This document shows, piece by piece, positions 210 to 18,929 of a stretch of DNA of 64,000 nt. Origin of the DNA: Seonamhaeicola algicola (GTDB lineage Bacteria > Bacteroidota > Bacteroidia > Flavobacteriales > Flavobacteriaceae); the NCBI RefSeq assembly GCF_007997385.1, contig NZ_VOSC01000007.1, positions 124,001 through 188,000 on the forward strand. Direction: 5' to 3'. Each line of letters begins with the position of its first letter. Positions within the stretch are counted from its first letter, which is position 1. Both the position numbers and the translations under genes were made by a program. Below the pieces are notes generated by a model. The model saw nothing but the letters and a program-made list of their open reading frames with translations, had not been told where the DNA came from and did no database searches.

Positions 210-2663
210 TTATTTAGAAACTATATCTACTTTTGAAGATTTTAATCCTTTAGATTTTGCATACAACGTTATTTTACCAGCTGTATTGCTAGCCTTAACA
301 ATAGCTAAACACATACCGCTAAAAGCTTTTCTATGGCTAGCCTGAAAAGACTCTAAACTGGTTTGATTTCCGTTATCAACAGCTAATAATTCACCCGCTC
401 CTTTTACTGAAAAGTTTACTAAGTTATCAGCGTTTGGGCATAAGTTTCCGTTTTTATCCTCTATTCTAACCGTAATATAGGCTAAATCTTCGCCATTAGC
501 ATTTATTTCTTCTCTATCAACAGATAAGCTTACTTTTGCTGGCTTTCCAGCTGTATTAATCTGTTTTTCTAAAATTTGTTTTCCGTTTTTATAACCAACA
601 ACTTTAATAGTTCCTGCCTCATATGGTACATCCCAAGACAACCTGTATTTAGATTTGAATGTTTTAGGTTCGTACCTTAAAAAATCAACCTTTAATTCTG
701 TTAAATCTTTACCTTTAACACGTTTTCCCATTGATTTTCCGTTTACAAATAATTCGGCACTATCACAATTTGTATAACAATATACAGGAATAGTTTGCCC
801 TTCCATACCTTGCCAATTCCAATGTGGTAATAAATGAATCATGGGTTTAGTTGTCCACTGGCTTTGGTATAAATAGAATCTGTCTTTTGGAAATCCACAT
901 AAATCTACCGCACCAAAATATGAACTATGCGATGGCCAATCTGCATTCCAATACCCATTGGTTGAATTATCTTTGCCTCCATAGGGTGTTGGCTCTCCTA
1001 AATAATCAAACCCAGTCCAAATAAACTCTCCCATACTATGTGGGTTTTGTTCTTGAAAATGAAACTCAACATCTGGAGGATACGCCCATGGTGGGCCAAT
1101 TAAATCATAACTAGTTACGTGTTTAGATTCATGTGTTTTATATTTTTCAATTGGTAAATGATACACACCTCTGCTGCTTGTACAACTTGAAGTTTCAGAG
1201 CCGTATAATGGCATTTCAGGATAATTTTCTCTAATTTCACTATACTTTGTTGGTTTGTAGTTTACTCCTGCTATGTCAACTTGTTGCGCCATATTATTAT
1301 CATAAGGCCCGGAATAATTATTAAAACCAGCCGATGTTGGTCTGGTTCTATCTAATTCCTTCACATAATCATTTAACATTTTAGCTGTTTTCCAACCGTT
1401 CTTTTTATCCTTTTGTTCAATAATTTCGTTGCCAATACTCCACATTACTATTGACGGATGGTTTCTGTCTCTTAAAACCATATCTTTAATATCACGTGCT
1501 CCCCATTCTTCAAAAAACACATTATATCCGTTAGGCACTTTTTCCATTTTCCAAACATCAAAGGCTTCATCTTGAACTAGTAACCCTAATTCATCACATA
1601 ACTCTAAAAATTCTCTTGAAGGCGGGTTATGACTTGTGCGAATAGCGTTTACACCCATACTTTTCATAATTTGAAGTTTACGCTCATCGGCTCTTCTATA
1701 AACTGCAGAACCAAGTGCTCCATTATCATGATGTAAACACACCCCATTAAAGCGTATTGGTTTGTTATTTAAAAAGAAACCATCTTTTGTATAAGCTATG
1801 CTTCGTATTCCAAAGCGTGTTTTATAGGTATCTAAAACTTCATTACCACTTATAATAGTTGTTACGGCATTGTATAAGTGTGGGGTTTCTGTATCCCAAA
1901 TTAAAGGGTTTTTAATTTTAGTATATAGCGCAGAAACAGCTGTACCGTTGGCTTTTACAGTAATATCTTCGGTTTCTGTTGCTACTAGTTTATTTTCAGC
2001 ATTAAAATACTCTTGTTTTACTGTTACAGTGGCGTTTATGTTACTTTTATTAACTACTGTTGTTTCATTTTGAATAACCCCAATTTTTGATGTTACCGTT
2101 GGTGTTGTTATAAATGTACCCCATTGTTTTACATGAACAGGGTTATCAATTTTTAACCAAACTGAACGGTATAAACCTGCCCCCGGATACCAACGCGATG
2201 ATAAATCTTCAGGGGTTAATCTTACTGCTACCACATTATCAGATCCATCGTACTTTAAATATTTACTCACATCAAACTCAAACCCTATGTAACCGTAAGG
2301 GCGCTTACCTACAAACTGGCCGTTTACCCATACATGTGCATTATACATAGCGCCTTCAAACTCTAAACTTACTACTTTTCCTTTAGCATTAGCATCCATT
2401 TTAAAATGTTTACGATACCAACCTGTGCCATGAAATGGTAATCCGCCAGCACGGGCATTATATTTTACATCAAAAGGCCCTTCAATAGCCCAATCGTGTG
2501 GGAGGTTTAAATCTCGCCATTTTGAATCATCAAAGGATGTATTTTCGGCACCTTCGGCTTTGTTGTTGTAAAACTTCCAAGAATTATTAAAATTTATGTT
2601 TTGTGCGCATAAACTACTTATACTTAAGGCTACAAAACAGAGTAAACTAAATAGTTTGTTCAT
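210..2663 (-). CDS. GH2 family glycoside hydrolase, beta-galactosidase-like, exported
   Basis: An 817-residue protein with a signal peptide (residues 1-20, cleavage near SLCA-Q). The order is a GH2 jelly-roll sugar-binding domain (about 22-180), an immunoglobulin-like domain (about 180-285), a TIM barrel (about 290-600), then C-terminal beta domains of the DUF4982 and GH2 C5 type. The acid/base candidate is Glu413 in the GNE motif after VMWSI, and the nucleophile candidate is Glu490 in YGSE. These motifs define retaining GH2 enzymes. The domain set is that of Bacteroidota beta-galactosidases, though GH2 also covers beta-glucuronidases and other specificities. It is the last gene of a minus-strand run, 28 nt after a sulfatase, which suggests exo-removal of beta-galactose from desulfated oligosaccharides in the periplasm. 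Substrate is inferred. Confidence 0.88.
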   Translation of the reverse strand: MNKLFSLLCFVALSISSLCAQNINFNNSWKFYNNKAEGAENTSFDDSKWRDLNLPHDWAIEGPFDVKYNARAGGLPFHGTGWYRKHFKMDANAKGKVVSLEFEGAMYNAHVWVNGQFVGKRPYGYIGFEFDVSKYLKYDGSDNVVAVRLTPEDLSSRWYPGAGLYRSVWLKIDNPVHVKQWGTFITTPTVTSKIGVIQNETTVVNKSNINATVTVKQEYFNAENKLVATETEDITVKANGTAVSALYTKIKNPLIWDTETPHLYNAVTTIISGNEVLDTYKTRFGIRSIAYTKDGFFLNNKPIRFNGVCLHHDNGALGSAVYRRADERKLQIMKSMGVNAIRTSHNPPSREFLELCDELGLLVQDEAFDVWKMEKVPNGYNVFFEEWGARDIKDMVLRDRNHPSIVMWSIGNEIIEQKDKKNGWKTAKMLNDYVKELDRTRPTSAGFNNYSGPYDNNMAQQVDIAGVNYKPTKYSEIRENYPEMPLYGSETSSCTSSRGVYHLPIEKYKTHESKHVTSYDLIGPPWAYPPDVEFHFQEQNPHSMGEFIWTGFDYLGEPTPYGGKDNSTNGYWNADWPSHSSYFGAVDLCGFPKDRFYLYQSQWTTKPMIHLLPHWNWQGMEGQTIPVYCYTNCDSAELFVNGKSMGKRVKGKDLTELKVDFLRYEPKTFKSKYRLSWDVPYEAGTIKVVGYKNGKQILEKQINTAGKPAKVSLSVDREEINANGEDLAYITVRIEDKNGNLCPNADNLVNFSVKGAGELLAVDNGNQTSLESFQASHRKAFSGMCLAIVKASNTAGKITLYAKSKGLKSSKVDIVSK

Positions 2664-2691: not shown

Positions 2692-4188
2692 TTAAATTAC
2701 TTTATATTGTTTTTTTAGTTTTAGTAGTTCTTCTTTCATTTCTGAAATTTTACTACTATTTTTTAATCTTGGATACAAGTTATTCATTTCGGCAGGATCT
2801 TTTTTTAAATCATAAAACTCCCATTCTTCTTCATTTTTAACATCTTTCCCATAAAACCTAATAAGTTTATAGCGTTTGTTTGCTACACCTTCATGCTTAC
2901 GTACAGAATGTGCACCTGGATATTCGTAATAATGATAATAGAGACTTTTTCTCCAATCTTTTGGTGTTTTTCCTTTTAAAATTGGCACTAAACTTTTCCC
3001 TTGCATATCCTCTGGAATTGGTGCTCCTGCTATGTCTAAAAAGGTTTCAGCAAAATCTATATTTTGTACTAAATCTGAATTTACGCTTCCTGGTTTGGTT
3101 TGCCCTGGCCACTTAACAATCAGTGGTGTTCTAAATGATTCTTCATACATAAAACGTTTATCAAACCACCCGTGTTCTCCCATGTAAAAACCTTGATCTG
3201 ATGAGTACATTACAATGGTATTTTTATCTAAACCTGTTTCTTTTAAATAGGCCATTACACGTCCAATATTTTCATCTACACTCCAAATGCATCGTAAGTA
3301 ATCTTTCATGTAAATTTGGTATTTAAGTTTTAGTAAATCATCACCTTCTAAATTTAAATTTTTATATTTTTCTCGTCGGGCATCAAACCTATCATCAATA
3401 CCTTTAGTAACTTTCCAATACTCATTTTCGGCCTCTGTTATTTTAAGGTCTCTGTGCAAATTCATGTCTTTTAAAATACTCATGGTTTGCCCATGTGCTG
3501 CCGTGGTTCTTGTTTTATAATCATCAAATAAATTATTAGGTTCGGGTATTTCAATGTTTTCATACATACTCATGTGCTCTCTACTTGGTACCCATGCCCT
3601 GTGCGGTGCTTTATGATGTAACATCATCATAAAAGGTTTGGTTTTATCGCGTTTGTTTTCTAACCAATCTAAAGATTTATCTGTTATAATATTGGTGGTA
3701 TAACCTTCGTATTTTTTTTCACCTTCTTCAGAAAGTAATACAGGATTTACATAAGAACCTTGACCTAATAAAACCTCCCAATAATCAAAGCCTTGCATGT
3801 TACCATCTAAATGAATTTTACCAATCATAGCTGTTTGATAGCCATTTTTTCTTAGAATTTTTTGAAATTGTTGTTGATTATGATTGAAAGGATGCTTTTT
3901 AGTATTTGTAAACTTGCCATTTAAATGACTCATTTTACCTGTTAATAAAGCAGCTCTACTTGGTGCACAAATAGAATTTTCAACATAACACTTATTAAAA
4001 ATCATACCTTGAGACGCCAACTTATCTAGATTTGGCGTTGGGTTTAAACTTTGTAATTTTCCGCCGTAGGCACCAATGGTTTGATAGGAATGATCATCAC
4101 TAAAAATCAAGATAATATTTGGTTTGTTTTGTGCATATGCCATTAAGGCTGTAAGTAGATATAAAAGTGGAAATAGTTTAGCTTTCAT
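2692..4188 (-). CDS. Family S1 sulfatase with C-A-P-S-R formylglycine site
   Basis: A 498-residue exported protein (signal peptide 1-20, ending AYAQ). The N-terminus carries the metal-binding Asp pair (Asp31-Asp32 in FSDDH). The active-site motif is C74-A-P-S-R78, the standard C-x-P-x-R signature in which Cys becomes formylglycine. A later SSDQGFYMGEHG segment gives the second metal-binding Asp, and a C-terminal subdomain follows. The length is typical of S1 arylsulfatase-like enzymes. It is 28 nt upstream of the GH2 gene and 97 nt downstream of a GH29 gene. It probably removes a specific sulfate ester from oligosaccharides imported to the periplasm. The regiospecificity cannot be read from the sequence. 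A formylglycine-generating enzyme must come from elsewhere in the genome. Confidence 0.92.
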   Translation of the reverse strand: MKAKLFPLLYLLTALMAYAQNKPNIILIFSDDHSYQTIGAYGGKLQSLNPTPNLDKLASQGMIFNKCYVENSICAPSRAALLTGKMSHLNGKFTNTKKHPFNHNQQQFQKILRKNGYQTAMIGKIHLDGNMQGFDYWEVLLGQGSYVNPVLLSEEGEKKYEGYTTNIITDKSLDWLENKRDKTKPFMMMLHHKAPHRAWVPSREHMSMYENIEIPEPNNLFDDYKTRTTAAHGQTMSILKDMNLHRDLKITEAENEYWKVTKGIDDRFDARREKYKNLNLEGDDLLKLKYQIYMKDYLRCIWSVDENIGRVMAYLKETGLDKNTIVMYSSDQGFYMGEHGWFDKRFMYEESFRTPLIVKWPGQTKPGSVNSDLVQNIDFAETFLDIAGAPIPEDMQGKSLVPILKGKTPKDWRKSLYYHYYEYPGAHSVRKHEGVANKRYKLIRFYGKDVKNEEEWEFYDLKKDPAEMNNLYPRLKNSSKISEMKEELLKLKKQYKVI

Positions 4189-4285: not shown

Positions 4286-5812
4286 TTATTTTATCTTTAT
4301 TTTATAAACTAAGGCCTTATCAGCCTCTTCTGGTTTTTGTTTGGGTTGTTTTAGCAATAGACCATTTTTTGTGTTTTTCCAATAAATTTTTTCATTGCTT
4401 CCTAAAACAGACACCGATTTAACCTTTATATGTTTAGCTTTTTCTGCAAAGGTTTTTAAAACTTTTTCAGGTGTGTTTTCATTCCATCCTAACTGAATAG
4501 CGTAAACAACATTGCCCTTTTGGGTAAATCTTACATCATTAGCATTTAGTTTATTTAGCCCTTTTTTAATGGCGCCATATTCGTTCCAAGCATCTGCTTC
4601 ATCTCGTTTTAAAATGGTGGTTCCTTCTCCAAAAGCAACAAAAGGTTTTGTATTGTAAATGGCTTCTCCGTAGCGTTTCATCCAAGCACCAATACCTTCC
4701 ATAGCTTTAACTTGTTCTTGTGGTATTGTACCATCTGCCATAGGACCTGCTGATAACAACATTACACCGTTTTTACTTACTACTTCTGCCAACATTCTAA
4801 TAGCTTGCGCAGGATTAATAGCAGTTCTTTTTTCTTTGTTATAACACCAACTACTACCTAGTATAAAATCTGTTATCCATACTTCTGGGGTAATATCTTC
4901 CATAGTAGCGCGCTCCACATTCACTACGGCTAATTCTGTTGGAAAGAAATCTCCTTTAGTGTTAACAACTACTTCTTTTCCTTCTTTTTGAGCTTTATTA
5001 AAATAGTTTGTTAAAAATTGTTTCCTATAATCTTCGGAAATGAAACGTTGCCCAAAATCCATCCAAATATAATCTGGACAATGTGCCTCAATGACTTCGT
5101 TTAATTTACCTAGCCATAAGTCTTGTGCTTCTTCATAATCCATATTACCATAAAGTACGCGGTATTTAGGGTTTTGTGGCACTTCACAATTTTCATAAAC
5201 ATAATTGTATTTGTTAACAGTTACAGGACGTAAATACGATAAATCTGGTTTAGGATAAAACATATTGTGAAACCCATGATGAAATGTTGCCATGAATTTT
5301 AAACCGCGCTTTTTGGTTTCTTCGCCAATGGCTTTTACTACATCAATTCCTGGACCTTTGTTTACAGAATTCCATTCATTAACCTCGCTTTCCCAAAGTG
5401 AAAAGCCGTCATGATGTTCTGCTATTGATCCAATAAATTTGGCTCCCATGGCTTCAAACATATCTACCCATTCTTTGGCATTAAATTTAGGTGCTTTCCA
5501 CATTGGAATAAAATCATGATAATCAAAATCTTCTCCGTAAGTTTCACGATGTTTTTTATATACTTTTCCGCCCCAAAGATTTTCATCACGGTCTGGAACA
5601 TACATCCAACGTGGGTACCATTCGCCATCTGTGGCTGGCACTGAATATACACCCCAATGAAAATACACACCCAATTTTGCATTGGCAAACCATTGCGGTA
5701 CAGCATTATGCTTTTTTAATGATTCCCAGTTAGATTGATACGCTTCCTGTGCTGAAACGTTTACCATTAATAATAATATGGTTATTGTAATAACAAGCTT
5801 TATTAGTTTCAT
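4286..5812 (-). CDS. GH29 alpha-L-fucosidase-like enzyme, exported
   Basis: A 508-residue protein with a signal peptide ending near residue 21 (NVSAQ). Family GH29 signs are the FHWGVYSVPA segment near residue 52, the His133-His134-Asp substrate-pocket motif (AEHHDGFSLW), the WNS motif near 147, and the nucleophile candidate Asp252 in YIWMDFG. GH29 retaining enzymes release alpha-L-fucose, and some release alpha-L-galactose from porphyran-type galactans, so the sugar is uncertain. The catalytic domain covers about 25-400, and a beta-sandwich follows to the end. It has its own predicted regulator site upstream (5835-5895) although it sits inside a run of minus-strand genes. It is a distant paralogue of the GH29 protein encoded at 26778-28343. 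Confidence 0.9.
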   Translation of the reverse strand: MKLIKLVITITILLLMVNVSAQEAYQSNWESLKKHNAVPQWFANAKLGVYFHWGVYSVPATDGEWYPRWMYVPDRDENLWGGKVYKKHRETYGEDFDYHDFIPMWKAPKFNAKEWVDMFEAMGAKFIGSIAEHHDGFSLWESEVNEWNSVNKGPGIDVVKAIGEETKKRGLKFMATFHHGFHNMFYPKPDLSYLRPVTVNKYNYVYENCEVPQNPKYRVLYGNMDYEEAQDLWLGKLNEVIEAHCPDYIWMDFGQRFISEDYRKQFLTNYFNKAQKEGKEVVVNTKGDFFPTELAVVNVERATMEDITPEVWITDFILGSSWCYNKEKRTAINPAQAIRMLAEVVSKNGVMLLSAGPMADGTIPQEQVKAMEGIGAWMKRYGEAIYNTKPFVAFGEGTTILKRDEADAWNEYGAIKKGLNKLNANDVRFTQKGNVVYAIQLGWNENTPEKVLKTFAEKAKHIKVKSVSVLGSNEKIYWKNTKNGLLLKQPKQKPEEADKALVYKIKIK

Positions 5813-5913: not shown

Positions 5914-7452
5914 TTAAAAATAACGCCCTGTTTTTACGCCACTATCACGGGTTTGATTATATAATTCAAACAAACGTTTTACTTTACTTTTATATTTAGG
6001 TGTATTAATAAAATTGAATGTTTCGTGCTCCCAAATGTTTTCATTTAAATTGAAAAGTGCAATGGGTGTTCTTGTATTGTTTGTTTTATCTTTTTTATCA
6101 ATTTGAATAATTAATTTCCATCCATCTTTTATTATCATCACTTCTTTATGAGAACCGCCTTGTAGCATTATATGCGAACGCTTTTTAGCTTTTGTATTAT
6201 TATTTAAAAAAGGCATGAGGTTATAAGAATCTAAAGCTTGATTATTGTGAATTTTAGTTTTTGAAATAGCTGATAGAGTTGCCATTATATCTGTGCCTAA
6301 AACGGGTTCATTAGATTTGGTATTTGCTTTTATTTTATTTGGCCAAGACACTATAAATGGTACTCTGCTTCCGCCCTCGTAAGGATCATTTTTGCTGCCC
6401 CTGTAAATATCACTTGGTTCATGGTGTGCATTCCAAGTATCTCCATCAACATGAAGCCCGCCATTATCTGATGTAAAAATAAATACGGTATTCTCATAAA
6501 TACCTTGGCGTTTCAATTCTTCAATCATCATCTTAATTTGAACATCTAGTTCTTTAACCATATCTAAATGCTTTGAAGGTGTTGTACCTTTTATTTTTAC
6601 ACCATTAATTTCATGTGGTGCGTCATGCGGTGTATGAACAGCCTGCGAGCAGTAATACATAAAAAATGGTTGCTTTTTATTTGCATACTTTTTAATGTAG
6701 TTTACTGCTTTATTGGCAATGAGCGGGCCTATTTTACTTGGTTGCCACATTGAATCTCCGTAACCTTCTTTTTTGTTTAAAGTAAAGCCTAGTTTTCTAT
6801 AAAATTCAGCATCAACAATTCCAATTAAAGAATGTTTATCTAACGGAAACCATTGGTCATTCTCATAAGCAGCATAAGGTACGTTTTGAATTCCTGAAGG
6901 TAGTGTAAAACTGTAGTCAAATCCGTTTTGCATTGGGCCATCACTTACTATTTCAGAAATATCAACATTGATATTAAATTTATCTTTATCGGTTTTAGCC
7001 TCATATACTTTGTTTGGTTTTCGTTTATCTTTAAAACCACACCCTAAATGCCACTTACCAATAAAAGCTGTATTGTAATTTGCTTTTTTCATTAGCCTAC
7101 CTAAAGTTAAGGTTTCTTCAGTAAAAACACCTTTTGAATAGCCACCCCAAACACCCCATGGTGACGGACTACGGTAATTGTAATTACCCGTCATTATAGA
7201 ATAACGAGACGTAGCACATAATGCTGCTGGTGCATGTGCATTAGTAAACATCATTCCGCTTGTTGCTAGCTTATCTATATTGGGCGTTTCAACAATAATT
7301 TTGGGGTTGTGCAATCTTCTATATTTTGAAATATCACCTACGCCTACATCATCTGCTAAAACAACAATAATATTAGGTTTTTCTTCTGAAGTATTTTGAG
7401 ATTTAAAAATACTAGTTTGAAATATGATTAATAAAATTACTAGTTTTTTCAT
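5914..7452 (-). CDS. Family S1 sulfatase with atypical C-A-T-S-R site
   Basis: A 512-residue exported protein with a hydrophobic signal sequence (about 1-18). Metal-binding Asp34-Asp35 occur in LADDVG. The formylglycine motif reads C79-A-T-S-R83, with Thr where the usual C-x-P-x-R has Pro. The flanking residues (AALC and RYSIMTGNY) are otherwise normal for S1 sulfatases. Further conserved pieces are IGKWHLG near residue 137, a VHTPHD segment, and FTSDNGG, which supplies the second metal ligands. The gene lies 1 nt downstream of the Asp-box protein gene, so the two are almost certainly cotranscribed and perhaps translationally coupled. It probably acts on sulfated oligosaccharides in the periplasm. 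Sulfate position is unknown. Confidence 0.9.
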   Translation of the reverse strand: MKKLVILLIIFQTSIFKSQNTSEEKPNIIVVLADDVGVGDISKYRRLHNPKIIVETPNIDKLATSGMMFTNAHAPAALCATSRYSIMTGNYNYRSPSPWGVWGGYSKGVFTEETLTLGRLMKKANYNTAFIGKWHLGCGFKDKRKPNKVYEAKTDKDKFNINVDISEIVSDGPMQNGFDYSFTLPSGIQNVPYAAYENDQWFPLDKHSLIGIVDAEFYRKLGFTLNKKEGYGDSMWQPSKIGPLIANKAVNYIKKYANKKQPFFMYYCSQAVHTPHDAPHEINGVKIKGTTPSKHLDMVKELDVQIKMMIEELKRQGIYENTVFIFTSDNGGLHVDGDTWNAHHEPSDIYRGSKNDPYEGGSRVPFIVSWPNKIKANTKSNEPVLGTDIMATLSAISKTKIHNNQALDSYNLMPFLNNNTKAKKRSHIMLQGGSHKEVMIIKDGWKLIIQIDKKDKTNNTRTPIALFNLNENIWEHETFNFINTPKYKSKVKRLFELYNQTRDSGVKTGRYF

Positions 7453-7453
7453 G

Positions 7454-10400
7454 CTATTTTTTTATAATTTTTCCTGATGATACTTTGTGGCCATTACTTA
7501 ACACTGTGTATATATATAGCCCTTGAGTTAATTTATTTATGTTAAATGACTTATTTGAATATCCTTTTGCATTAAAAACTAGTTTACCATCTATGGTATA
7601 TAGTTTTAATTGTATATTTCCTGTTACACCTTTAATATTTATAATGTTTGAAGTAGGGTTTGGAAACACCACAACATTATTAACTTTAACTTTTGCTTTA
7701 GTATTTAAAGCGTTAGGACTGGGGTCTATAGCCATATACCAACCACTACCACGGGTTGATGCATAATATTTTCCTGGAATGGTATAATCTATAGCAATAT
7801 CATTTACCCTATCAGATTGCCCATTGCCTTTATTAAATTTTACCCATGTATTACCGCCATCTTTAGATACATATGTTCCGCCATTTCTTCTATCTACATT
7901 TGTATTAGGTAATGTAGAAACCATAATGGTTTGTGTATCTAATTTTGAAACCTCAACACGGTTAGTCCATGGATAATCAAAAATTTTATTCCAAGTAGCC
8001 ATATTATCTTTACTAACCCATAAACCACCTTCATTAATACCTACATTTTTATACCCTGATGTTATATATGCATTACCATCAACATCAAAATGAATATCAT
8101 TAATACCCGAAGAGGCAGCTATTGATACTGTAGACGCTACTTCAAACCATGAAGCACCACCGTTAGTTGATTTATACAAGCCTCCATTATTATTAATTAC
8201 AGCTGCGTACAATGTATTTGTATTATCAGGATCAAAAGCTATTCTAGCAACATCTAGCGATGCTGGAAGCCCTGTGTTTATTTCACTCCAAGTTACACCA
8301 CCATTTGTTGATTTATGTACACCCCAACTTTGAGAGCTATCACCTACCCACTCTATATCTTTTGATGATTTTGGCACACAGAAATACATATTATTAGGAT
8401 TATTTTTATCAATCATTAACCCTAGTTGATGTACAGCTTGATCACCACTTCCTGGAGGTGCTGGAGCCCAGGGTTCAGGAATTGGTGTGCCTATAGCGTT
8501 CCATGTAGCACCTGCATTGGTTGTTTTTAACAATTGTCCGCGTTTGGCTTGCCTAAAAAACGTAGCAAACCACGTATTTTTATCGGTTGGATGAACCACT
8601 ACCGAACTTACAGAATGTTCTTGCCTTACGCCGTTGCTATTATAAACTAAATGCATTACAGAACCACCTTGCGCGCCTGCCCTAACGTTTTCACCTTCAT
8701 TATTAGTTATCCATAAACTATTTTCACCAGAAGGACAAAATACTTTTTCTGGCCAAAGCTCAGATTGATAAAATCCGTGACCTGGCACATTACTATTGCC
8801 TGCACCAACCCATCCATCTAACGGAGAGTTGGGTTCTTTTGCCGCTTCGTCATCAATATCAACCCACGTGTTTCCTTTATCATAAGATACAAAACCTACT
8901 TTTGCCAACTGAGTATAAAGTACAGAACCATTAGCATTAAACTTGATAAAATTACAGCCTTTCCGTTCGTAATTATCTCTGTTTATCCAATCACTTTTAT
9001 ATTTCATGGTAATGTTTGTACCTATTGGGTTATTTCTTTGTGTTACCCAAAGTGCATCATGTATACCATTATTCCAGTTTTTGCCGTTTCTGAATGTTAC
9101 AATCCAATTAGAGCCACCGTTAGTTGTACGCCATATTTGCCCCGGACCAAAATTGCCTTTAGCTACGTTTGAAAAATCGTTTACCAAATACACATTATTA
9201 GCGTCATTAGGATCTACTGTTATCATGTTAAACCTTGGGGTTATGTTAGTTGGCAATACAGTGTATGTTGCTTGCGCTGCAGCTGTTGAAACACCAAAAT
9301 AATGTGCTATAGATTGGTAATAATCTGTTTCTACATTACTATCACCATCATTTGCAAACGCATTTAAATTTAATGCTAAATTACTGCTAACGTTTATCCA
9401 GGTTTCTCCTCTATCTGTACTTTTAAAAACACCTCCTTTATCATTTTCTACAGAGTTTCCGGCCGCTGTTTCTTTCCACGTAATATTACTTAAAGCATAA
9501 ATAGTAACTTGGTTTGTTGTTTTGTTATGGTGTAAATCCATGGAGCGAATCATATCATGATTTATACCATTTGATTTTAATGACCATGAAGCACCTCCAT
9601 CTGTACTCTTGTAAAAGCCGTAATTAGTACCTGCATATACAATTGAATTATTTAACGGGTCTACCAAAATAGTTTCAAACTCTGCATTAGCATTAATTCC
9701 TGTATTTGAAAGTGTCCAGGTTTGTCCTTTATCCGTACTTTTCCATAGTTTACCATTAGCATTAGCATCTAAATAAGTTCCTTTTGGTGCTGATTGCGGA
9801 TAGGATAAACGCGCGTAATCACGCATTCTGCCTGCTCCTAAAAACCAAACATTATCATTTGATGGATCTACCGCTACTACCGATAAATAATTATTACTTA
9901 AAACTGAAGAGGTTTGTAACTCCCAAGTTTTGCCTTTATTTAATGTTTTGTATAAACTTCCCTTTACTTTACCGGTTGCAAAACCAAAGTTTTCATTTTG
10001 ACGTGAAAAATCTAATGAATACATTTCTAAAGGCCCTCTGTATCCTGTATTGTATGATTGTTCATCTTCATTCATTATAGTTTCATAAGTAAAACCACCA
10101 TTAGTAGAACGGTATGAATTACCCATATTAGGACTTGTGTAATGTGTATCAGGATCAGTAGGATGTGTATAAAAACAACGGTTATTACCGCTCATTCCAG
10201 GCCCAAACTGCACCCATTTTATTGAAGTACTAGATGCTACATTGGTAGTTTTTAATAGTTCAAAATAGTCTGGCACTACTTCTTCTATTATAAAATCATC
10301 AAAATAATACTCACCCTCACCACTTGCTGATGCTCTAAATGTAAATAAAACATAACCTCCTGTATCGTCTTTTTCAGGGGTAATTTTATCTTCAAACTTA

Positions 10401-10819
10401 ATCCAATCTGTAGTAGTTGTAGCATTGTTTATGGCGTTATTTCCATACAAATGCAACCCAAATTTAGAGTTATCACCTTCAAATGTTTTTATGTGTGAAT
10501 CATTACCGTTTGCTGGTGTAATTACTTTAAAGTAATATGAAACTTTATATGTTTTACCTAACTGCCAATTAAAAATAGTAGGTGTTGTTAAATTAGCTTT
10601 TTGCGCAGCATTATTAAACTTTATATGAAAGCCATAATTACCCGTTTTTTTTGCAGCTGTACTTCGTTCAAAAACTGGTAACCCTCCTGCATTATTCGTA
10701 TTCCATTCTGTAATTAAATCATTTTCAAAACCGCTACTAAATATTTGAGAAAACGCACTAAAACTACCAAGAAAAGCTAGTAGTAAAATGCTTTTTAAAA
10801 GTGTATTAATTTTAGTCAT
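7454..10819 (-). CDS. Large secreted Asp-box (BNR) beta-propeller protein with N-terminal jelly roll and T9SS sorting tail
   Basis: A 1121-residue protein with a signal peptide (cleavage after AFSQ, about residue 25). Residues 25-180 form a CBM4/9-like jelly roll ending YYFDDFIIEE. From about 230 to 1030 there are about a dozen Asp-box motifs of the form S-T-N/D-x-G-x-x-W (for example KSTDGGASW, RTTNGGSNW, KSTNGGVTW), typical of sialidase, GH74 and VPS10-like propellers. The last 75 residues are a type A T9SS C-terminal domain (FPNPTSNIINIKG to SSGKIIKK), so the protein should reach the cell surface or medium. I cannot name the catalytic family. It is the only T9SS-tailed gene product inside the minus-strand enzyme run and starts a transcription unit that continues into a sulfatase and GH29. 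It could be an endo-acting depolymerase or a binding protein. Confidence 0.8.
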   Translation of the reverse strand: MTKINTLLKSILLLAFLGSFSAFSQIFSSGFENDLITEWNTNNAGGLPVFERSTAAKKTGNYGFHIKFNNAAQKANLTTPTIFNWQLGKTYKVSYYFKVITPANGNDSHIKTFEGDNSKFGLHLYGNNAINNATTTTDWIKFEDKITPEKDDTGGYVLFTFRASASGEGEYYFDDFIIEEVVPDYFELLKTTNVASSTSIKWVQFGPGMSGNNRCFYTHPTDPDTHYTSPNMGNSYRSTNGGFTYETIMNEDEQSYNTGYRGPLEMYSLDFSRQNENFGFATGKVKGSLYKTLNKGKTWELQTSSVLSNNYLSVVAVDPSNDNVWFLGAGRMRDYARLSYPQSAPKGTYLDANANGKLWKSTDKGQTWTLSNTGINANAEFETILVDPLNNSIVYAGTNYGFYKSTDGGASWSLKSNGINHDMIRSMDLHHNKTTNQVTIYALSNITWKETAAGNSVENDKGGVFKSTDRGETWINVSSNLALNLNAFANDGDSNVETDYYQSIAHYFGVSTAAAQATYTVLPTNITPRFNMITVDPNDANNVYLVNDFSNVAKGNFGPGQIWRTTNGGSNWIVTFRNGKNWNNGIHDALWVTQRNNPIGTNITMKYKSDWINRDNYERKGCNFIKFNANGSVLYTQLAKVGFVSYDKGNTWVDIDDEAAKEPNSPLDGWVGAGNSNVPGHGFYQSELWPEKVFCPSGENSLWITNNEGENVRAGAQGGSVMHLVYNSNGVRQEHSVSSVVVHPTDKNTWFATFFRQAKRGQLLKTTNAGATWNAIGTPIPEPWAPAPPGSGDQAVHQLGLMIDKNNPNNMYFCVPKSSKDIEWVGDSSQSWGVHKSTNGGVTWSEINTGLPASLDVARIAFDPDNTNTLYAAVINNNGGLYKSTNGGASWFEVASTVSIAASSGINDIHFDVDGNAYITSGYKNVGINEGGLWVSKDNMATWNKIFDYPWTNRVEVSKLDTQTIMVSTLPNTNVDRRNGGTYVSKDGGNTWVKFNKGNGQSDRVNDIAIDYTIPGKYYASTRGSGWYMAIDPSPNALNTKAKVKVNNVVVFPNPTSNIINIKGVTGNIQLKLYTIDGKLVFNAKGYSNKSFNINKLTQGLYIYTVLSNGHKVSSGKIIKK

Positions 10820-10931: not shown

Positions 10932-10956
10932 AAAAGCGCTCATAATGAGCGCTTTT
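10932..10956 (-). terminator. Intrinsic terminator after the sulfatase gene
   Basis: An 11-bp perfect stem (10932-10942 with 10946-10956, arm AAAAGCGCTCA) has a 3-nt loop and is followed on the minus strand by a U-tract. It ends the transcript of the sulfatase gene at 10974-12791 and separates it from the Asp-box operon. Confidence 0.8.
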
Positions 10957-10973: not shown

Positions 10974-12791
10974 TTAAACTTTAGTTACATATACATAATA
11001 GGCTATGTTTTCTTCACCTTTATTATTAAAAAAACTTGCATTCATTTTTGTTTTTCCTTTGGGTAAGTGTACTTTAAAATCTGCTGATTTATCGTTGCTA
11101 CTAACAGCCTTTGTTTCATTAATAGCAGTGCCTATTTTAATATTTGCTTTTGTATAATTTAAATTTTCACCTTCTGGATAATCAAAAGCTAAACCTGGTT
11201 GTTCTTCTTGTGTTGTACCGTGTACTGTGGTGTTAATAAGTAAATTTACTTCTTGCGGATAACGCCTTAAAGATACTGTATAATTGCCTTCTTCTAAAAC
11301 ATTAATACTCCAGTAACCTTCTCCTGTGGCGCCACTTCTTATATAACGTTGATTCCATGGTTGTTTACCATTATCTGCGTGTACATCGTGGCAAGTTAAT
11401 GTAACAGGGTTTTCTTGTGGTGCTCCTATTTTTATATAAACTTCTTCATTAAACTGTACTGAAACGCGCTGCCACCATTTTTCATAAAACGCACGCATTT
11501 CGGCTACTTTTTCTGGGTATTTACTAGCTACATTATTTTTTTGACTTTTGTCTTTGGCAATGTTATATAATTCTTCGCCATTTACAAGGCGCCACTTATC
11601 TTGCATTACTGAAGATTTTCGCCATTTTTCTGGTACTTGAATTCTTTGAGAATCTGTTACCAACATCCTATCATCCTTTTTATCTGGATTTTGAATAAAA
11701 GGCACTAAACTTTGTCCTGCTAATTCTAGGTGATTTTCTGGCAAATCTATTTTACACAACTCTGCTAAGGTTGGCATTACATCTAAATTAGCAGAAAGCT
11801 GATTAATATCTGTTCCTGTAGCTAAGTTTCCATCTTTCCAGTAGATAAAAAACGGCACTCTATGGCCACCTTCATACTCGCTTCCTTTTGTTCCTCGCAT
11901 ATCTGCATTATACCCTGTAACATCACCTTTTTTGTTGTAATAGCCTGTGGTTCCGTTATCGGTCATAAAAATTAAAATAGTATTATCGGCTATATTCAAT
12001 TCTTTTAAGGTGTTACGAAGTTTCCCTAAGTTATCATCAACATTAGTAATCATTCCATAGAAACGTTTTTGGTTTTCTTTCAACACATCATTACCTAAAT
12101 CTTTATAAATATTGTAGTAATTTAAAGGTACGTGGTATGGCCCATGTGGTGCATTAGTTGAAATGTAGCAAAAAAATGGTTTTTCTTTGTTTTCAGCAAT
12201 AAACCTAGTGGCTTCTCTAAAAAACACATCGGTGCAGTAGCCTTCATACTTTTGGGGTTTACCGTTGTGAAAATAGGTATCGTTAAAATAATCGTTATTC
12301 CAATAATCTGGTGTTTGGTCAACACCGCCACCTCCGTGCATTACGGTTTCTTGAAAACCTCTATCTTCTGGCCTAAAACCATAATTATCGCCTAAATGCC
12401 ATTTACCAAATCCGCCTGTGGCATAACCTGCTTGTGTAAACATATTGGCTAATGTTTTTTCTTGCTCTCTTAATAAAGACCAACCACCTACGGTGTGCCA
12501 TACGCCTACTTCATTAGCATATCTACCCGTCATTAAACCAGAGCGCGTTGGTGCACATGTTGGCCCTACGTGAAAATCTGTAAATCTGTAACTTTCACTA
12601 TGCAATGCATCAATATTAGGCGTTTTTATAACTTTGTTTCCGTGTGCTCCAATATCTCCGTAGCCTTGATCATCGGTTATAACTAGAATAACATTGGGCT
12701 TTTTAAATGCTGTTTGTGCTGTTTGCTTTTTAGTTTCATTACAATTAAAAAGCAAAAGTGTTATTGCAAATAGACTTAAATAAAATTTCAT
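10974..12791 (-). CDS. Family S1 sulfatase lipoprotein with C-A-P-T-R site and C-terminal beta domain
   Basis: A 605-residue predicted lipoprotein: the signal sequence ends in the lipobox LLFN-C17. Metal-binding Asp40-Asp41 are in ITDDQGYGD, and the formylglycine site is C79-A-P-T-R83. GKWHLGDN (near 130), SPHGPYH-type His residues (NAPHGPYH) and MTDNGT complete the S1 core up to about residue 450. The remaining 150 residues form a beta-rich domain (GEGYWSINVLEEGNYTVSLR and following) absent from minimal sulfatases, possibly a carbohydrate-binding or lid module. Terminators on both sides (12889-12914 and 10932-10956) make it a single-gene unit with its own promoter region. The lipid anchor suggests it faces the periplasm or cell surface. 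Sulfate position is not readable. Confidence 0.9.
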   Translation of the reverse strand: MKFYLSLFAITLLLFNCNETKKQTAQTAFKKPNVILVITDDQGYGDIGAHGNKVIKTPNIDALHSESYRFTDFHVGPTCAPTRSGLMTGRYANEVGVWHTVGGWSLLREQEKTLANMFTQAGYATGGFGKWHLGDNYGFRPEDRGFQETVMHGGGGVDQTPDYWNNDYFNDTYFHNGKPQKYEGYCTDVFFREATRFIAENKEKPFFCYISTNAPHGPYHVPLNYYNIYKDLGNDVLKENQKRFYGMITNVDDNLGKLRNTLKELNIADNTILIFMTDNGTTGYYNKKGDVTGYNADMRGTKGSEYEGGHRVPFFIYWKDGNLATGTDINQLSANLDVMPTLAELCKIDLPENHLELAGQSLVPFIQNPDKKDDRMLVTDSQRIQVPEKWRKSSVMQDKWRLVNGEELYNIAKDKSQKNNVASKYPEKVAEMRAFYEKWWQRVSVQFNEEVYIKIGAPQENPVTLTCHDVHADNGKQPWNQRYIRSGATGEGYWSINVLEEGNYTVSLRRYPQEVNLLINTTVHGTTQEEQPGLAFDYPEGENLNYTKANIKIGTAINETKAVSSNDKSADFKVHLPKGKTKMNASFFNNKGEENIAYYVYVTKV

Positions 12792-12933: not shown

Positions 12934-14817
12934 TTATATATTAATTACGTTTTTTATGTAATTCATTTTACGTTCTAGCTCTTGTACTTTTAATATGTTT
13001 TTATCAATTTTATTTACATCGATATTGAATTTATAATGATGGTTACCTTCTTCTTGATCCATTAAAACAATGCAGTTAATAATTAATAAAGCTTCAGCTG
13101 CTTGTTTAGATTGATACAACGCCTGTGTCATTACTTCTACAGGGCTTGTATGTTTAATTAAACCTAGATATTCAGCGGCTCTTACTTTATTAATTAACTC
13201 AGTATCTGATTTAGAAATTTCTTGAATAATAGGAATAAATTCTTTGGCTTTATCACCAAAAATACTACAATTAATTAAGGCCCAATACCTATCCCAAGCA
13301 TCTGTTGATTTTAAGCTTTTTTCTAAACTTGTTTTGGCTTCTTCAAATGATAGTAAACTTAAATTAGCAATTTCAATGTAACGCTTAATGTCATTTTTAT
13401 GATCTTGACCAAATTTTACAGGATTTTCAAATGCATTTTCAATTAAATAATGTTCTGGATAGAATGATAAATCTGGCATGCTTTCTACCCAATTATTTAA
13501 CTTTCCTCTTAATTCTAATAGTTTAGATTTGAAATTAGCATCATTTGCTAAATTTTTAGTTTCGTATGGGTCTGCTTCAACATCAAACAGTAACTCTACA
13601 GGGCGTTCTTTAAAAAATGCAGCCTGCACCTCGTTTAGCGCGCCTTTATCATATAATTTAGCCCATTCTTTGTAGGCTAATTGCTTGTAACGATAATTGT
13701 TCATTAAACCATCAAAATTAAATGGTTGATAGCTGCGCATGTATTTGTATTTACCTTTTCTAACGGTACGCACCATATCATACTTTTCATCAAATCTATC
13801 GGCATAACTATAGGTTTCATCACAAGTTTCAAGATATTCTTTGGTTATGTTTTCACCCATAAAAGGTTTTCCATCCATGTTTTCTGGCACTTTTATACCT
13901 GCAAGATTTAAAACTGTTGGTCCAAAATCTTTAAAACTTACAAAAGCGTTTTCTCTTCCTCCAATTTCTGCATTAACCAAGTGCTTATATTTTTCTGGCA
14001 CCCTAACTACTAACGGCACATGTAAACCCGTTTCATAAATATAGCCTTTACTGCCGGGTAAAACACCTCCATGGTCTCCAAAGTAAAAAATAATTGTGCT
14101 GTCTAACAATCCATCAGTTTCAAGCGTTTTAACAATTTCACCCAATTGCTTATCAATATGCACCATTTTATCTCGGTAAAAGGCATTTGTGTATTTAAAC
14201 ACTTCAGTATTGGGGTGATTTGGCTGTACAAAAACAGTATTAGCATCTGTTTTTGTTGGGTTGTTTTTCATTTGTTCTTCAGAAAAATGCAGTCTGCTTT
14301 CATGAGAATCGCCTAAATTAACTACGTGAAAAAATGGCTGCCCTTGTTTTCTATTCTTATAGGTTGCTTTTTTAGAAGAATCATCCCAAACAGAGTCACT
14401 TTTAATAAAGTTATAATCTTCTTTACTGTTATTAGTAGTGTAATAACCTGCACTTTTTAAATAAGCCGGATACATTTCTACACCGTTTGGCATAGGAACC
14501 TGTTCTATTTTACGGTGATACTGCGCACCAACTCTAGGGGCATAACAGCCCGAAATTAGTGTTGAACGTGCAACACTACAAACTGGTGCATTTGAAAATG
14601 CATGATTAAAAACCACACCTTGGCTAGCTAATGCTTCAATGTTTGGTGTAGCAACACCGTTTTCATCAAACAATTTCATGTAGTGTTTAGAGTTGTCTTC
14701 TGAAGTTATCCAAACAATGTTTGGTGGGTCTAATTGAATGTTTTCTTGTTGTTGTTTACAACTTAAAAACAACAAACCGACCATTAGGAAAAATAAAGGT
14801 TTTAAGTTAAAATTCAT
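12934..14817 (-). CDS. Divergent family S1 sulfatase lipoprotein with C-S-V-A-R site and C-terminal helical-repeat domain
   Basis: A 627-residue predicted lipoprotein (lipobox LFLS-C20). The fold is that of S1 sulfatases, but key motifs are unusual. The first metal site reads Glu40-Asp41-Asn (ITSEDNS) rather than Asp-Asp, and the formylglycine position is C80-S-V-A-R84, lacking the Pro of C-x-P-x-R. Cys and Arg are both kept. FGDHGGVLPGSKG supplies the second metal ligands. After the catalytic domain (to about residue 480) comes a helix-rich region of about 130 residues that resembles HEAT-like repeats (AWDRYWALINCSIFG, KVRAAEYLGLI). This pattern recurs in Bacteroidota sulfatases related to N-sulfoglucosamine sulfohydrolase-type enzymes, as far as I recall. 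Regiospecificity is unknown. Confidence 0.85.
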   Translation of the reverse strand: MNFNLKPLFFLMVGLLFLSCKQQQENIQLDPPNIVWITSEDNSKHYMKLFDENGVATPNIEALASQGVVFNHAFSNAPVCSVARSTLISGCYAPRVGAQYHRKIEQVPMPNGVEMYPAYLKSAGYYTTNNSKEDYNFIKSDSVWDDSSKKATYKNRKQGQPFFHVVNLGDSHESRLHFSEEQMKNNPTKTDANTVFVQPNHPNTEVFKYTNAFYRDKMVHIDKQLGEIVKTLETDGLLDSTIIFYFGDHGGVLPGSKGYIYETGLHVPLVVRVPEKYKHLVNAEIGGRENAFVSFKDFGPTVLNLAGIKVPENMDGKPFMGENITKEYLETCDETYSYADRFDEKYDMVRTVRKGKYKYMRSYQPFNFDGLMNNYRYKQLAYKEWAKLYDKGALNEVQAAFFKERPVELLFDVEADPYETKNLANDANFKSKLLELRGKLNNWVESMPDLSFYPEHYLIENAFENPVKFGQDHKNDIKRYIEIANLSLLSFEEAKTSLEKSLKSTDAWDRYWALINCSIFGDKAKEFIPIIQEISKSDTELINKVRAAEYLGLIKHTSPVEVMTQALYQSKQAAEALLIINCIVLMDQEEGNHHYKFNIDVNKIDKNILKVQELERKMNYIKNVINI

Positions 14818-14924: not shown

Positions 14925-16970
14925 TTATGGTCTGTATTCTTTTTTATAAACTTTAAAATCATCAAAGTATAAAGTATACACAGTTCCTGATGTTGGCACT
15001 GGTTGAAACCTAATACCTACATTACTTACAGCACCTGGTGTAATTTCTACTTCAACTAGCTCCCAAGAGTCTTTTACAGGATCTCCGTTTGTAAACCATC
15101 TTGGTGTTACTGCGGCATTACCATTACCTAAATCAAACCAAATTTTTTCGCCAGCATCGGCTGCTCTAAAACCTGCTTCAAAATCTACACTGGCAGGAAT
15201 GTATCTTCTGTATGAAATGATATATGTTTCACCAGCTTCATAATTTAAGTTTCTGCCAGACTCTAATCTTGGTTTATCATTTGTTAACTTTACACTTTGT
15301 GCACCATCAAAAGCTTGATCTGTTGAAAACTCTACAATTGCACCTGTACCACTTGCTCCTTCAAACCAATAATCACCCAAAGTACCTTCAAAAGAACCAT
15401 CTGTAAATAAATTTTCAATGTATGGTTCTACGGTATCTGCGGCAAAATTTGCTATAGATCCGCCTCCTACAGTTTTAATTTCTCCTGGACCTGTGTAAGC
15501 TACTGTAATTACATCATCTTGATATACACCTTCAGAAATTGTAAACTCTAAAATTGCTGGGTTTGTTGCATTAACAGCTACTGAGCTAATTGTAGCTGCA
15601 CTACCATTAAGCATAATTGAAAAACCTGTTGCTGGATTTGTGGCGTTTGCTACAGAATCTGGATTTAAATCTTGATTAAATGTTACTTGAATAACATCAG
15701 TATTTGTTTCTACAATACTGCCTATTTTATCAGTTGGTGTTGGCACATATACTTGTATTGGTAGGTTTGAAAATGGCTCTAAAGGTCTTTCATCAAAAGA
15801 TTTTAATAAACTACTTGCCCCATCATAAGACACTACAACGGTTTTGCCATCATCTTCAGGCAGTATTGGATCGTCAGATAAATCTATTAATAACTTTGTG
15901 CCATTAGCATTTCTAGTTATTGCCGTAATTGTTTTTGCAACCCCATCAACTTCAACTAAAAAATTATCAACTACAGCGCCCTCTAGCGGCATAATTTTAT
16001 GGCTTAGTGTAACCTCTACAATATCCATATCAGTTTCAACAATAGTACCTGTTTGCTCTAATGGCTCAGTTAACGGAATTACGTTAAATATTGTTGGTAT
16101 ATTGTATGTATTTTGGCTTTGCTTTAAATTATCAGTTCTTTCTCGTGTGGCTGTTAGCTCTACTTTAAACTCTCCTAATTCATCAAAGGTAATAGTGTCT
16201 ATTACACGCTCTCTTAAATTTGTTCGTGTGTAACTATTTCTGTATGCATTTGTTTGATCTTCTTCATTCGCTTCGGTGGTATGCATTCTCCAAACAGTAG
16301 TATTGGGTCTTGCATTGTTGTTTTCTAACAAGCCGCTTAAATCTTCAAAAATCAATTTATCGCCAAAAGTTAAAGTAACAGTTTGAGTGTTATTATGGTT
16401 TAGTATAGTTTCATCTAAATACCTAACTTGTGGTGTAGCTACAACGGTATCATACACATCAATATTAAACCAGTATTCTGCTACCCATTTACCGTTTCTT
16501 TTAACTGTTTTAATAGTATCTTCAACATTTTCGCCTAAATCTGAATCCCAGTAAGCCGGAAACCTAAATGATGTTGAATCTGGAAACACCCCAAAATATC
16601 CTACTTTAGTTAAAGAATCTCCTTTTTTCCAGAGTACGTGTACTGTTTTTTCTGAAGATACTTTTCTGTTTGAAGGTTCTGCTATGTATGCATCATGATT
16701 ATCTAAATTATTAGGAATTGGACCTTCTAAAAAGAAGGCTGAATTTGGTATTCTCCACTCACTATACTCTGCTCCTGCTGAAATATCAGAGAAAGAGAAA
16801 AATCTATTAACTTCAGATTCTCTTTCGGCAGCAGCACCAGAGGTCATGGTTATTGAGAGGTCTACAAATGATCCTGGTATTTCATATTCATCATCACTAC
16901 AGCTAACAAAAGAACTTATAAGTAATGATAACAAACACAATGATTTTAATATATTATTTGTTTTATTCAT
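14925..16970 (-). CDS. SusE/F-position surface glycan-binding-type lipoprotein
   Basis: A 681-residue predicted lipoprotein (lipobox near FVS-C24, followed by SDDEYE, an acidic stretch resembling Bacteroidota lipoprotein export signals). An N-terminal beta-rich part (about 30-300) has no family I can name. Two tandem SwmB/bacterial Ig-like repeats follow (about 305-400 and 405-520), both starting GxIVETxxDxxxVT. The C-terminus (about 520-681) is a CBM4/9-like jelly roll starting LFTDGSFEG and ending YTLYFDDFKVYKK. It follows SusD by 48 nt in the same operon, the usual place for a surface glycan-binding protein that works with the SusCD transporter. The binding specificity is unknown. No catalytic motifs are seen. 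Confidence 0.75.
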   Translation of the reverse strand: MNKTNNILKSLCLLSLLISSFVSCSDDEYEIPGSFVDLSITMTSGAAAERESEVNRFFSFSDISAGAEYSEWRIPNSAFFLEGPIPNNLDNHDAYIAEPSNRKVSSEKTVHVLWKKGDSLTKVGYFGVFPDSTSFRFPAYWDSDLGENVEDTIKTVKRNGKWVAEYWFNIDVYDTVVATPQVRYLDETILNHNNTQTVTLTFGDKLIFEDLSGLLENNNARPNTTVWRMHTTEANEEDQTNAYRNSYTRTNLRERVIDTITFDELGEFKVELTATRERTDNLKQSQNTYNIPTIFNVIPLTEPLEQTGTIVETDMDIVEVTLSHKIMPLEGAVVDNFLVEVDGVAKTITAITRNANGTKLLIDLSDDPILPEDDGKTVVVSYDGASSLLKSFDERPLEPFSNLPIQVYVPTPTDKIGSIVETNTDVIQVTFNQDLNPDSVANATNPATGFSIMLNGSAATISSVAVNATNPAILEFTISEGVYQDDVITVAYTGPGEIKTVGGGSIANFAADTVEPYIENLFTDGSFEGTLGDYWFEGASGTGAIVEFSTDQAFDGAQSVKLTNDKPRLESGRNLNYEAGETYIISYRRYIPASVDFEAGFRAADAGEKIWFDLGNGNAAVTPRWFTNGDPVKDSWELVEVEITPGAVSNVGIRFQPVPTSGTVYTLYFDDFKVYKKEYRP

Positions 16971-17018: not shown

Positions 17019-18929
17019 TTATTGATTCCAATTTAAATTAGCATTAATTTCATCTTGTGGCACTGGTAAATAGCTGTGTACCTCTTCAATAAAATTTTGA
17101 GAACCTAAAAGATTATCTCTTAAAAAAGGTTCATTTGTTCTTCTGTTGGCATTAGAATTTAGGTTGGCTGGTTGCCTAAAAGCATAATCTGGCGCTTCTG
17201 TGTTTGCCGGGTAAGATGGTACCTGACCTGCTGGCATGATAAAGCAACGCCACCTGGTTGGGTTTTTGCTCATAGCGTTATTTTTAAAGTGCCACGCATC
17301 ATACTCAAATTGTGCTAAGTGTTCTAATTGCTGTTTCCAAACGCCCCAACGTCTTAAATCTATAGTACGATTTCCTTCTAGTGCTAACTCTAGAGGTTTT
17401 TCGGTAAACCTTAAATGTTCCATTAGGTTTTGAAGCGTTACCGGCTCTTCACCATTTGTTAAATCTAAATCAATATCATTATAATATGTTGCAGTACCTG
17501 AAAATTCTGCTCCGGCATCAGATGAGCTTCCTAATAAAATTAAATGAGAGCGTTTTCTAACGCGGTTTATATAGCGTAATGCTTCAGATAAATCGCCTTT
17601 TTCAATCATACATTCAGCATACATTAAATAAACTTCAGCTAAACGCATTATTGGTATATTAATATCAGATCTGTTATCTTTTTCAGGATCTTCTGCTTCA
17701 CCAATACCACCGTTATTTGTATTCCAGCCTGTAAACTTTTTAATAAAGTTAGGAAATTGTCTTGCGTGTGGAGCTGCCGATGTTTCGGTACCGTAATCAG
17801 CTAATTCAACACCGTACATTCTGTCATCTCTATCATCAACAGATGATATTGAGTTGTTCATACGTAAGCTGTACATTCTTAAAACGTTTTCTTGTATGCT
17901 TTCTAAATCTCCACTGGCATCATAAACATTTCTGTTTACATAGTTTGCAGGGTCTGCAGGGTCTGGTCTTTCATTTCTGTATTTAAGTGTTAACCATGAT
18001 GAAAACTGTATTCTGTTTCCGTCATTTAAAAAGTGTGTAATACGTTGTGAAAGGTTTTGCTCATCTAAACCTAAAGGGTTGGCTTCATAGGAATAATTAA
18101 TTTCGAAAATTGATTCATTATTAAACTCTGCAATGCCTGTTACACATTCTGATAAATCATCAGTTAATTGATAGTTATAGTTATCAATTACGTTTTTAAG
18201 ATATATTTCAGCATTTGTAAAATCGTTTTCGTTTAAGTAACTTTTTCCTAATAAGGCTTCACAAAAACCGGCTGTGATTCTTCCTAAATTACCGCTACCA
18301 ACTTCAGATTGCCATGCGTTGTATGTTGCGGGTAAATTATCTAAACCATATTGTAAATCTGCTCTAAAGAATGTTTTAATTTCTTCGGAAGAAGAAAATG
18401 CTATTTGAAAATCATTAAAATCTGTTGGTACTGTTTCAAATAACGGCACTGAACCATTATTAAATGTATGGTGCAATGTGTAATAAAAATAGCCTCTTAA
18501 CGCTCTTGCTTGGGCTAAAATTAAACTAGCTGTTTCATCGTTAATTGAAGGGTTTAACCTATTGTAAGCATCAATTACTTGGTTGGCTCTAAACACACCT
18601 CTGTAACAAGCATCCCATTTATTTTGTACTTCATTTGTTGTTAAATCAAAGGTTTGATCATAAATAGGGTTTCCTATAGCATTACTTCTTTGAGAAAACG
18701 GTACCGCTATATCTGTACGGGTATAATCCCAAAGAATTCCTAGAATATCTTCATCTCTCATGGCTGCATAAACGGCATTTAAACCTGTATTTAAATCGGC
18801 TGTTGTTTGCCAAAACGTACCTAATGTTAAAGCATTAGGGTTTACTTGGTCTAATTCATCTACACATGATTGAAATGTACAGGCAAAAATAAGTAGCGGA
18901 ATTAAGCCTTTTATAAATGTCTTTTTCAT
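17019..18929 (-). CDS. susD: SusD/RagB family outer-membrane lipoprotein
   Basis: I place the start at 18929 (MKKTFIKG), because this gives a proper lipoprotein signal with lipobox TFQS-C22. The open frame extends 16 codons further upstream to 18977, but that adds a charged segment in front of the signal sequence. The protein is 636 residues. SusD features include the TPR-like helices (ALRGYFYYTLHHTFNNGSVPLFE), the SEVYLMYAE-type motif (LAEVYLMYAECMIEKGDLSEALRYINRVR, cited here as one block) and a C-terminal PVPQDEINANLN signature. SusD caps the SusC barrel and captures oligosaccharides. It lies directly between SusC and the glycan-binding lipoprotein gene on one transcript. Confidence 0.92.
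   Translation of the reverse strand: MKKTFIKGLIPLLIFACTFQSCVDELDQVNPNALTLGTFWQTTADLNTGLNAVYAAMRDEDILGILWDYTRTDIAVPFSQRSNAIGNPIYDQTFDLTTNEVQNKWDACYRGVFRANQVIDAYNRLNPSINDETASLILAQARALRGYFYYTLHHTFNNGSVPLFETVPTDFNDFQIAFSSSEEIKTFFRADLQYGLDNLPATYNAWQSEVGSGNLGRITAGFCEALLGKSYLNENDFTNAEIYLKNVIDNYNYQLTDDLSECVTGIAEFNNESIFEINYSYEANPLGLDEQNLSQRITHFLNDGNRIQFSSWLTLKYRNERPDPADPANYVNRNVYDASGDLESIQENVLRMYSLRMNNSISSVDDRDDRMYGVELADYGTETSAAPHARQFPNFIKKFTGWNTNNGGIGEAEDPEKDNRSDINIPIMRLAEVYLMYAECMIEKGDLSEALRYINRVRKRSHLILLGSSSDAGAEFSGTATYYNDIDLDLTNGEEPVTLQNLMEHLRFTEKPLELALEGNRTIDLRRWGVWKQQLEHLAQFEYDAWHFKNNAMSKNPTRWRCFIMPAGQVPSYPANTEAPDYAFRQPANLNSNANRRTNEPFLRDNLLGSQNFIEEVHSYLPVPQDEINANLNWNQ

Follow-up and report, generated by a model that had tools for sequence, protein, structure and literature searches.

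The locus studied here raises the question of which of its proteins makes the first cut in a long glycan chain, and what a propeller protein with a T9SS tail contributes to it. The window, that is, the whole stretch of 64,000 nucleotides of Seonamhaeicola algicola that was analysed, had been given a preliminary description in which the Asp-box propeller protein encoded at 7454-10819 was the best candidate for a missing depolymerase. Overall, our analysis makes the enzyme reading plausible: the protein resembles GH74 in sequence and its family keeps a set of polar residues invariant, but the first catalytic Asp of GH74 is replaced by Asn and endo-enzymes of known families are encoded nearby. 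The reading that we prefer is an active galactan hydrolase of the GH74 fold with an altered catalytic residue, to which we give a probability of about 0.4. The genes of the locus are as follows.

210-2663, minus strand: GH2, a conserved partner (best PDB match 5t98, 1206 bits)
2692-4188, minus strand: S1 sulfatase A
4286-5812, minus strand: GH29 (best PDB matches 7snk and 7ljj, exo-alpha-L-galactosidase)
5914-7452, minus strand: S1 sulfatase B, a conserved partner, 1 bp from the stop of the propeller gene
7454-10819, minus strand: GH74-like protein of 1121 aa with a signal peptide, a predicted double propeller and a T9SS tail
10974-12791, minus strand: S1 sulfatase C
12934-14817, minus strand: S1 sulfatase D
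14925-16970, minus strand: SWM-repeat protein beside SusD, conserved across loci
17019-18977, minus strand: SusD-like protein
18988-22173, minus strand: SusC-like TonB-dependent transporter
22344-26558, minus strand: hybrid two-component regulator (HTCS)
26778-28343, plus strand: second GH29 (best PDB matches 7snk and 7ljj, exo-alpha-L-galactosidase)

The GH2, the two GH29 and the four sulfatases that had been listed for this run are thus all present, and downstream of the propeller gene the order is sulfatase B, GH29, sulfatase A and GH2. Sulfatase B has the formylglycine-site motif CATSR (C-x-T-x-R) and not the usual C-x-P/A-x-R, a feature common to 6/6 orthologues compared. The propeller protein had been called the only enzyme-like product with a T9SS tail. 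After the second GH29, on the plus strand, two large and mutually related proteins with LamG/MAM domains (28571-31834 and 32072-38977) also carry such tails, and no enzyme domain is recognised in them.

Within and just ahead of the propeller gene, the features that matter for the argument are these.

10932-10956, minus strand: terminator-like hairpin, stem of 11 bp plus T run, lying between the genes of sulfatase C and the propeller protein (consensus match only)
10340-10747, minus strand: N-terminal CBM4/9-like domain, residues 25-160 (PF02018, below the gathering score)
10127-10129, minus strand: codon of N231, in the column of GH74's first catalytic Asp
8723-8725, minus strand: codon of E699, candidate second catalytic acid at the turn of blade 8 (invariant in 37/37; from blade counting)
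7727-10264, minus strand: Asp-box propeller core of 14 blades (7+7), residues 186-1031 (from blade count, hhalign and Foldseek on poor models)
7463-7669, minus strand: T9SS type A sorting tail, residues 1051-1119 (PF18962, TIGR04183)

The open reading frame of 1121 residues is confirmed on the minus strand, and it is not a chance one, since 37 homologous proteins are found, several of them 54-67% identical over the full length. The terminator-like hairpin lies in the gap ahead of the gene, which may therefore open its own transcription unit. The tail is detected by both PF18962 (E=2.4e-10) and TIGR04183 (E=3.3e-10), each exceeding its cut-off, and the N-terminus is signal-like as judged by eye; by its sorting domain and signal peptide, the protein is predicted to be a T9SS cargo, secreted and surface-targeted. 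The N-terminal jelly roll fared less clearly, as the match to PF02018 (E=5e-5) scores 24.1 bits, under the cut-off of 25.9, and is thus sub-threshold; a distant member of CBM4/9 is plausible, and only part of the 37-member family carries this domain. In the propeller core of about 850 aa we count 14 blades from the sequence, 12 of them with an Asp-box, in agreement with the dozen or so reported previously, and the Asp-box/BNR matches are to PF15902 (Sortilin-Vps10, E=5e-28) and PF02012.

The fold had been left between GH74, GH33 and several lyases, and profile and fold comparisons decide in favour of GH74; the libraries searched for family matches were Pfam, NCBIfam and PDB sequences. The single sequence already finds the GH74 enzyme 6p2m in PDB (E=1e-5), and a profile of 21 family sequences places GH74 chains first (E down to 6e-22), before GH33 sialidases, sortilins and Ycf48. 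In hhalign, the match to GH74 has a local probability of 99.9% (E=2.6e-32) and a global E of 1.9e-48 and is collinear across the whole core; against the GH74 xyloglucanases the probability is 99.9-100% over the 850-aa core, end to end, the aligned profiles being about 22% identical. In addition, the Asp-boxes of the second propeller, which we count in blades 2-6, fall where they are tabulated for GH74 structures (blades 2-6, PMC2716378). AlphaFold2 was applied to the core and to its C-terminal half with three input sequences, giving pLDDT of 47 and 49, respectively, and models in which blades 7-8 are missing. The second catalytic residue of GH74 is presumably located in these two blades. For two low-confidence models Foldseek lists GH74 enzymes first, a weak support because the global TM-scores are poor (0.2-0.4). 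A GH33 sialidase was downgraded, as the sequence has no RIP motif, shows 14 blades and not a single 6-bladed propeller, and compares less well with GH33 in profile and fold. In a tree with eight GH74s, the 37 relatives stand together on one long branch outside the GH74 clade, and therefore the protein resembles GH74 and is not filed as GH74; by these comparisons, it belongs to a GH74-like, unclassified family.

The relatives divide into two reciprocally monophyletic subfamilies (tree support 1.0 and 0.996; 37 relatives), about 33% identical to each other, and they differ at a catalytic position. The first catalytic Asp of GH74 is marked by the D to A change between PDB chains 2cn2 and 2cn3 in the motif ARADIGGAYR, and is Asp in 9/9 of our comparison set, nine GH74 genes taken from plasmid records. 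It falls on residue 231 whether the family profile is set against 6p2m, hhalign is used or the sequences are aligned jointly with MAFFT; this residue is Asn in the propeller protein and in 20/20 of its own (Asn-type) subfamily, and Asp in 17/17 of the sister (Asp-type) subfamily. Only five columns split the subfamilies perfectly, namely N212Y, N231D, K640Q, N700H and I1010P (Asn-type to Asp-type), with column 700 adjoining the invariant E699. At 654, 856 and 908 the Asn-type carries additional acids (19-20/20); the Asp-type residues there are Q, S and, for the most part, N. Invariant in 37/37 are D252, R577, N602, D656, E699, R756, Q757, N979 and D1007, of which D252, R577, D656, E699, R756 and Q757 are candidate active-site residues. 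The question whether orthologues conserve acidic residues thus receives a divided answer, D252, D656 and E699 being kept throughout and the first Asp being lost in the Asn-type. As to the second catalytic Asp, which we take to lie in a GD-[ILV]-GG motif (D465, mutated in 2ebs), this motif is absent from the propeller protein. By blade counting, E699 belongs to the blade that opens propeller 2, the location of the second Asp in GH74, but neither hhalign (including sub-regions) nor MAFFT aligns the two; since direct alignment does not bear out the register from blade counting, E699 is only a putative acid. With blade limits set by hand, the conserved polar residues show a trend towards the functional face that is not significant (p=0.10), and neither is that of the subfamily-specific positions (p=0.26).

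These residues bear directly on the main rival explanation, that the protein is a pseudoenzyme derived from an enzyme, binding galactan through its CBM and propeller and holding it at the surface for enzymes that cut. The loss of the first Asp in all 20 Asn-type members speaks for such a binder, as do the CBM-like domain and T9SS tail of the window protein, the known-family endo-enzymes encoded nearby, and the Asp-type paralogues with intact Asp that the same genome also encodes. However, the candidate active-site residues stay invariant, and Asn-type members without tail and without CBM are common, for which surface binding is implausible; we regard this explanation as somewhat doubtful. If the protein is instead an active enzyme, its catalytic carboxylate may have moved elsewhere, as one possibility, or N231 may itself be the base, as noted for Asn in GH95 (PMC8245568).

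Whether the propeller protein has to make the first cut depends on what else the genome encodes. Pfam and NCBIfam reveal no endo-enzyme of a known family within the window run, as had been claimed, but the claim does not extend beyond the left edge. On the same contig (C25), a GH86-like gene at 110452-112440 (best PDB match 5ta1, E=1.5e-18; PF18206) lies 11.6 kb to the left of window base 1 and a GH16 gene at 105215-106462 lies 17.5 kb to the left, the two together spanning 11.6-18.8 kb past the edge. They share a cluster with GH2 and GH43-like genes and lie behind a divergent gene of LacI type, so designated on its N-terminal sequence alone. The adjacent region C25:90000-124000 (L126, L127) has the look of a red-algal-galactan cluster and contains a LacI-like regulator, an SSF symporter, an FAD oxidoreductase, GH2s, the GH86-like gene, a GH117-like gene, sulfatases, five GH43-like proteins of about 372 aa, and a GH16 interrupted by an F5/8C domain. 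In the genome as a whole there are 13 matches to GH16 and three proteins with a GH86 domain. Another locus, C2:322000-360000 (L030, L031), has two Asp-type paralogues, one of them at C2:335930-338392, together with GH16, GH28, GH2, GH43-like, SASA esterase and sulfatase genes, and adjoins planctomycete-type PSD1/PSCyt and DUF1501 genes; the best matches of its GH16 are porphyranases. The preliminary description had named a known-family endo-enzyme encoded elsewhere as part of what would count against its proposal, and with the GH86-like and GH16 genes just outside the window the propeller protein is not the sole depolymerase candidate; these other enzymes could make the first cut.

The proposed place of action is also only partly upheld. 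The window protein is predicted to be secreted and surface-targeted, but the T9SS tail is absent in 10/20 Asn-type relatives and no lipobox is found in the family members examined, so that the tail-less relatives are probably periplasmic, and the job of the propeller domain is not tied to a first extracellular cut. This leads to a second rival, an exo- or short-chain hydrolase acting on oligosaccharides, mainly the products of GH86 and GH16, in which the tail changes the workplace only. It would suit the probably periplasmic half of the subfamily and the clustering of the Asn-type gene with exo-enzymes (GH2, GH29 and GH43/117-like) in a Zobellia-type locus, but would fit poorly with the CBM-like domain and tail of the window protein and its closest relatives, and with GH74 being mostly endo-acting, though PDB 1sqj is a reducing-end-specific cellobiohydrolase. 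We consider it unlikely.

The substrate is approached through the neighbours and the distribution of the family. The 37 relatives are nearly all in polysaccharide loci of Bacteroidota; homologues occur in 13/399 Flavobacteriaceae genomes and in 3/395 of a sample of the phylum Bacteroidota, and a scan of viral contigs gives no relatives. In Lutibacter L010, G181, G002, G036 and G072 the propeller gene has a homologue of the window GH2 (74-78% identity) as an immediate or close neighbour, and four of these genomes also have sulfatase B homologues there. We take the best match of this GH2, 5t98, to be the agarose-locus GH2 of Bacteroides uniformis, a beta-galactosidase of agar type, and the exo-alpha-L-galactosidase matched by both GH29s to come from a porphyran locus. 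A fucoidan substrate was downgraded on these matches, and a galactan is likelier. Because of them and the homology to Zobellia-type loci, whose GH2s are 56-58% identical to that of the window, the likeliest target of the locus is a sulfated galactan of agar/porphyran type.

A third rival, a propeller-fold polysaccharide lyase that attacks uronic acid within the glycan, also depends on neighbours. Lyases with a propeller fold exist, and two relatives, Lutibacter L010 and G002, have GH88-like genes in the neighbourhood of the Asn-type gene. Fusions of GH88 with a BNR_4 propeller are encoded close to that gene at L010 3389-7183 and L036 3886-6321, L010 having a 3-keto-disaccharide hydrolase there as well, and this is a hint that the substrate of some relatives contains uronic acid. 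The window locus has no GH88/GH105, however, and the nearest relatives in fold and sequence are hydrolases, making a lyase highly improbable. At L045 7480-9960 (minus strand), a protein of 826 aa without Pfam match is 81-92% conserved in Zobellia-type loci beside GH29 and GH140-like genes.

The gene order GH16, two sulfatases, two GH28, GH2, GH29, SusC and SusD in one genome (G1112) is that of ZGAL_3628-3640, and from this match with the order in the passages of PMC5698469 on the locus we infer that the genome is Zobellia galactanivorans. An Asn-type and an Asp-type propeller gene lie there just past the GH16 matching ZGAL_3628. According to these passages, ZGAL_3629-3638 are up by log2 7-10 on kappa-carrageenan, oligo-carrageenans are substrates of the GH2 ZGAL_3633, clear binding of carrageenan is not seen for the SusD, and the locus is proposed for another sulfated galactan, e.g. 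sulfated agars; they make no mention of the propeller genes. The main text of the transcriptome paper PMC5613140 does not mention the locus.

Taken together, a hydrolase is favoured by the full-length GH74 alignment, the invariant polar residues, the fixed Asn231, the conserved sulfatase B and GH2 partners, the galactan-type locus, and the tail and CBM-like domain of the window protein. It is weakened by the Asn in place of the first Asp, a second Asp unplaced by sequence, the non-significant face test, the tail-less half of the Asn-type subfamily, and the GH86-like and GH16 genes in adjacent clusters. As a hydrolase, the secreted and surface-anchored double seven-bladed propeller would cleave sulfated red-algal galactan of agar/porphyran type, probably within the chain and in the cleft that separates the two propellers. 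E699 would serve as catalytic acid. N231 might keep a role, perhaps that of a base activated by a carboxylate, which has been described for GH95, or it might be replaced by an acid specific to the Asn-type (D654, D856 or D908, for instance). The products would feed SusC/D, the S1 sulfatases, the GH2 and the GH29s. Extended to the whole Asn-type subfamily, the proposal is of active GH74-fold galactanases with a catalytic residue moved or replaced (Asn231 or an acid such as D654) and of Asp-type paralogues differing in specificity; this we hold to be doubtful, but if true it would mean a new mechanism and a new activity on sulfated galactans. A vaguely defined Asp-box propeller has thus become a testable GH74-like family, with two subfamilies differing at a catalytic position. 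This family also borders a Zobellia locus that carrageenan strongly induces and whose true substrate was left open in 2017 (PMC5698469). Should the protein prove active, a fold known for xyloglucan would gain a branch that cuts galactan, and there would be a further example of an exchanged catalytic residue; should it prove inactive, it would illustrate how enzyme folds are put to new use as binders in red-algal loci.

Among known systems, GH33 sialidases and Vps10/sortilin are also Asp-box propellers, the latter reflected in the match to PF15902, but with 6 or 10 blades in one propeller, and they are weaker in profile and fold searches. The lambda-carrageenase family GH150 was set aside as a relative by its published description, a three-domain, two-lobed model in which the word "propeller" is absent. 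The GH74 xyloglucanases (PDB 2cn2, 6p2m and 6mgj) have two tandem 7-bladed Asp-box propellers, an arrangement predicted from the sequence of our protein as well, which differs from them in its CBM-like domain and T9SS tail and in a sulfated-galactan context with no xyloglucan partner enzymes; this context argues against xyloglucan as the substrate. The nearest system as a locus is ZGAL_3628-3640 of Zobellia galactanivorans. It has two GH28 and the GH16 porphyranase-like genes in addition, and its Asn-type propeller is without CBM and tail, unlike the window protein, while the regulator, SusC/D, GH29, GH2 and sulfatase set is the same as in the window locus.
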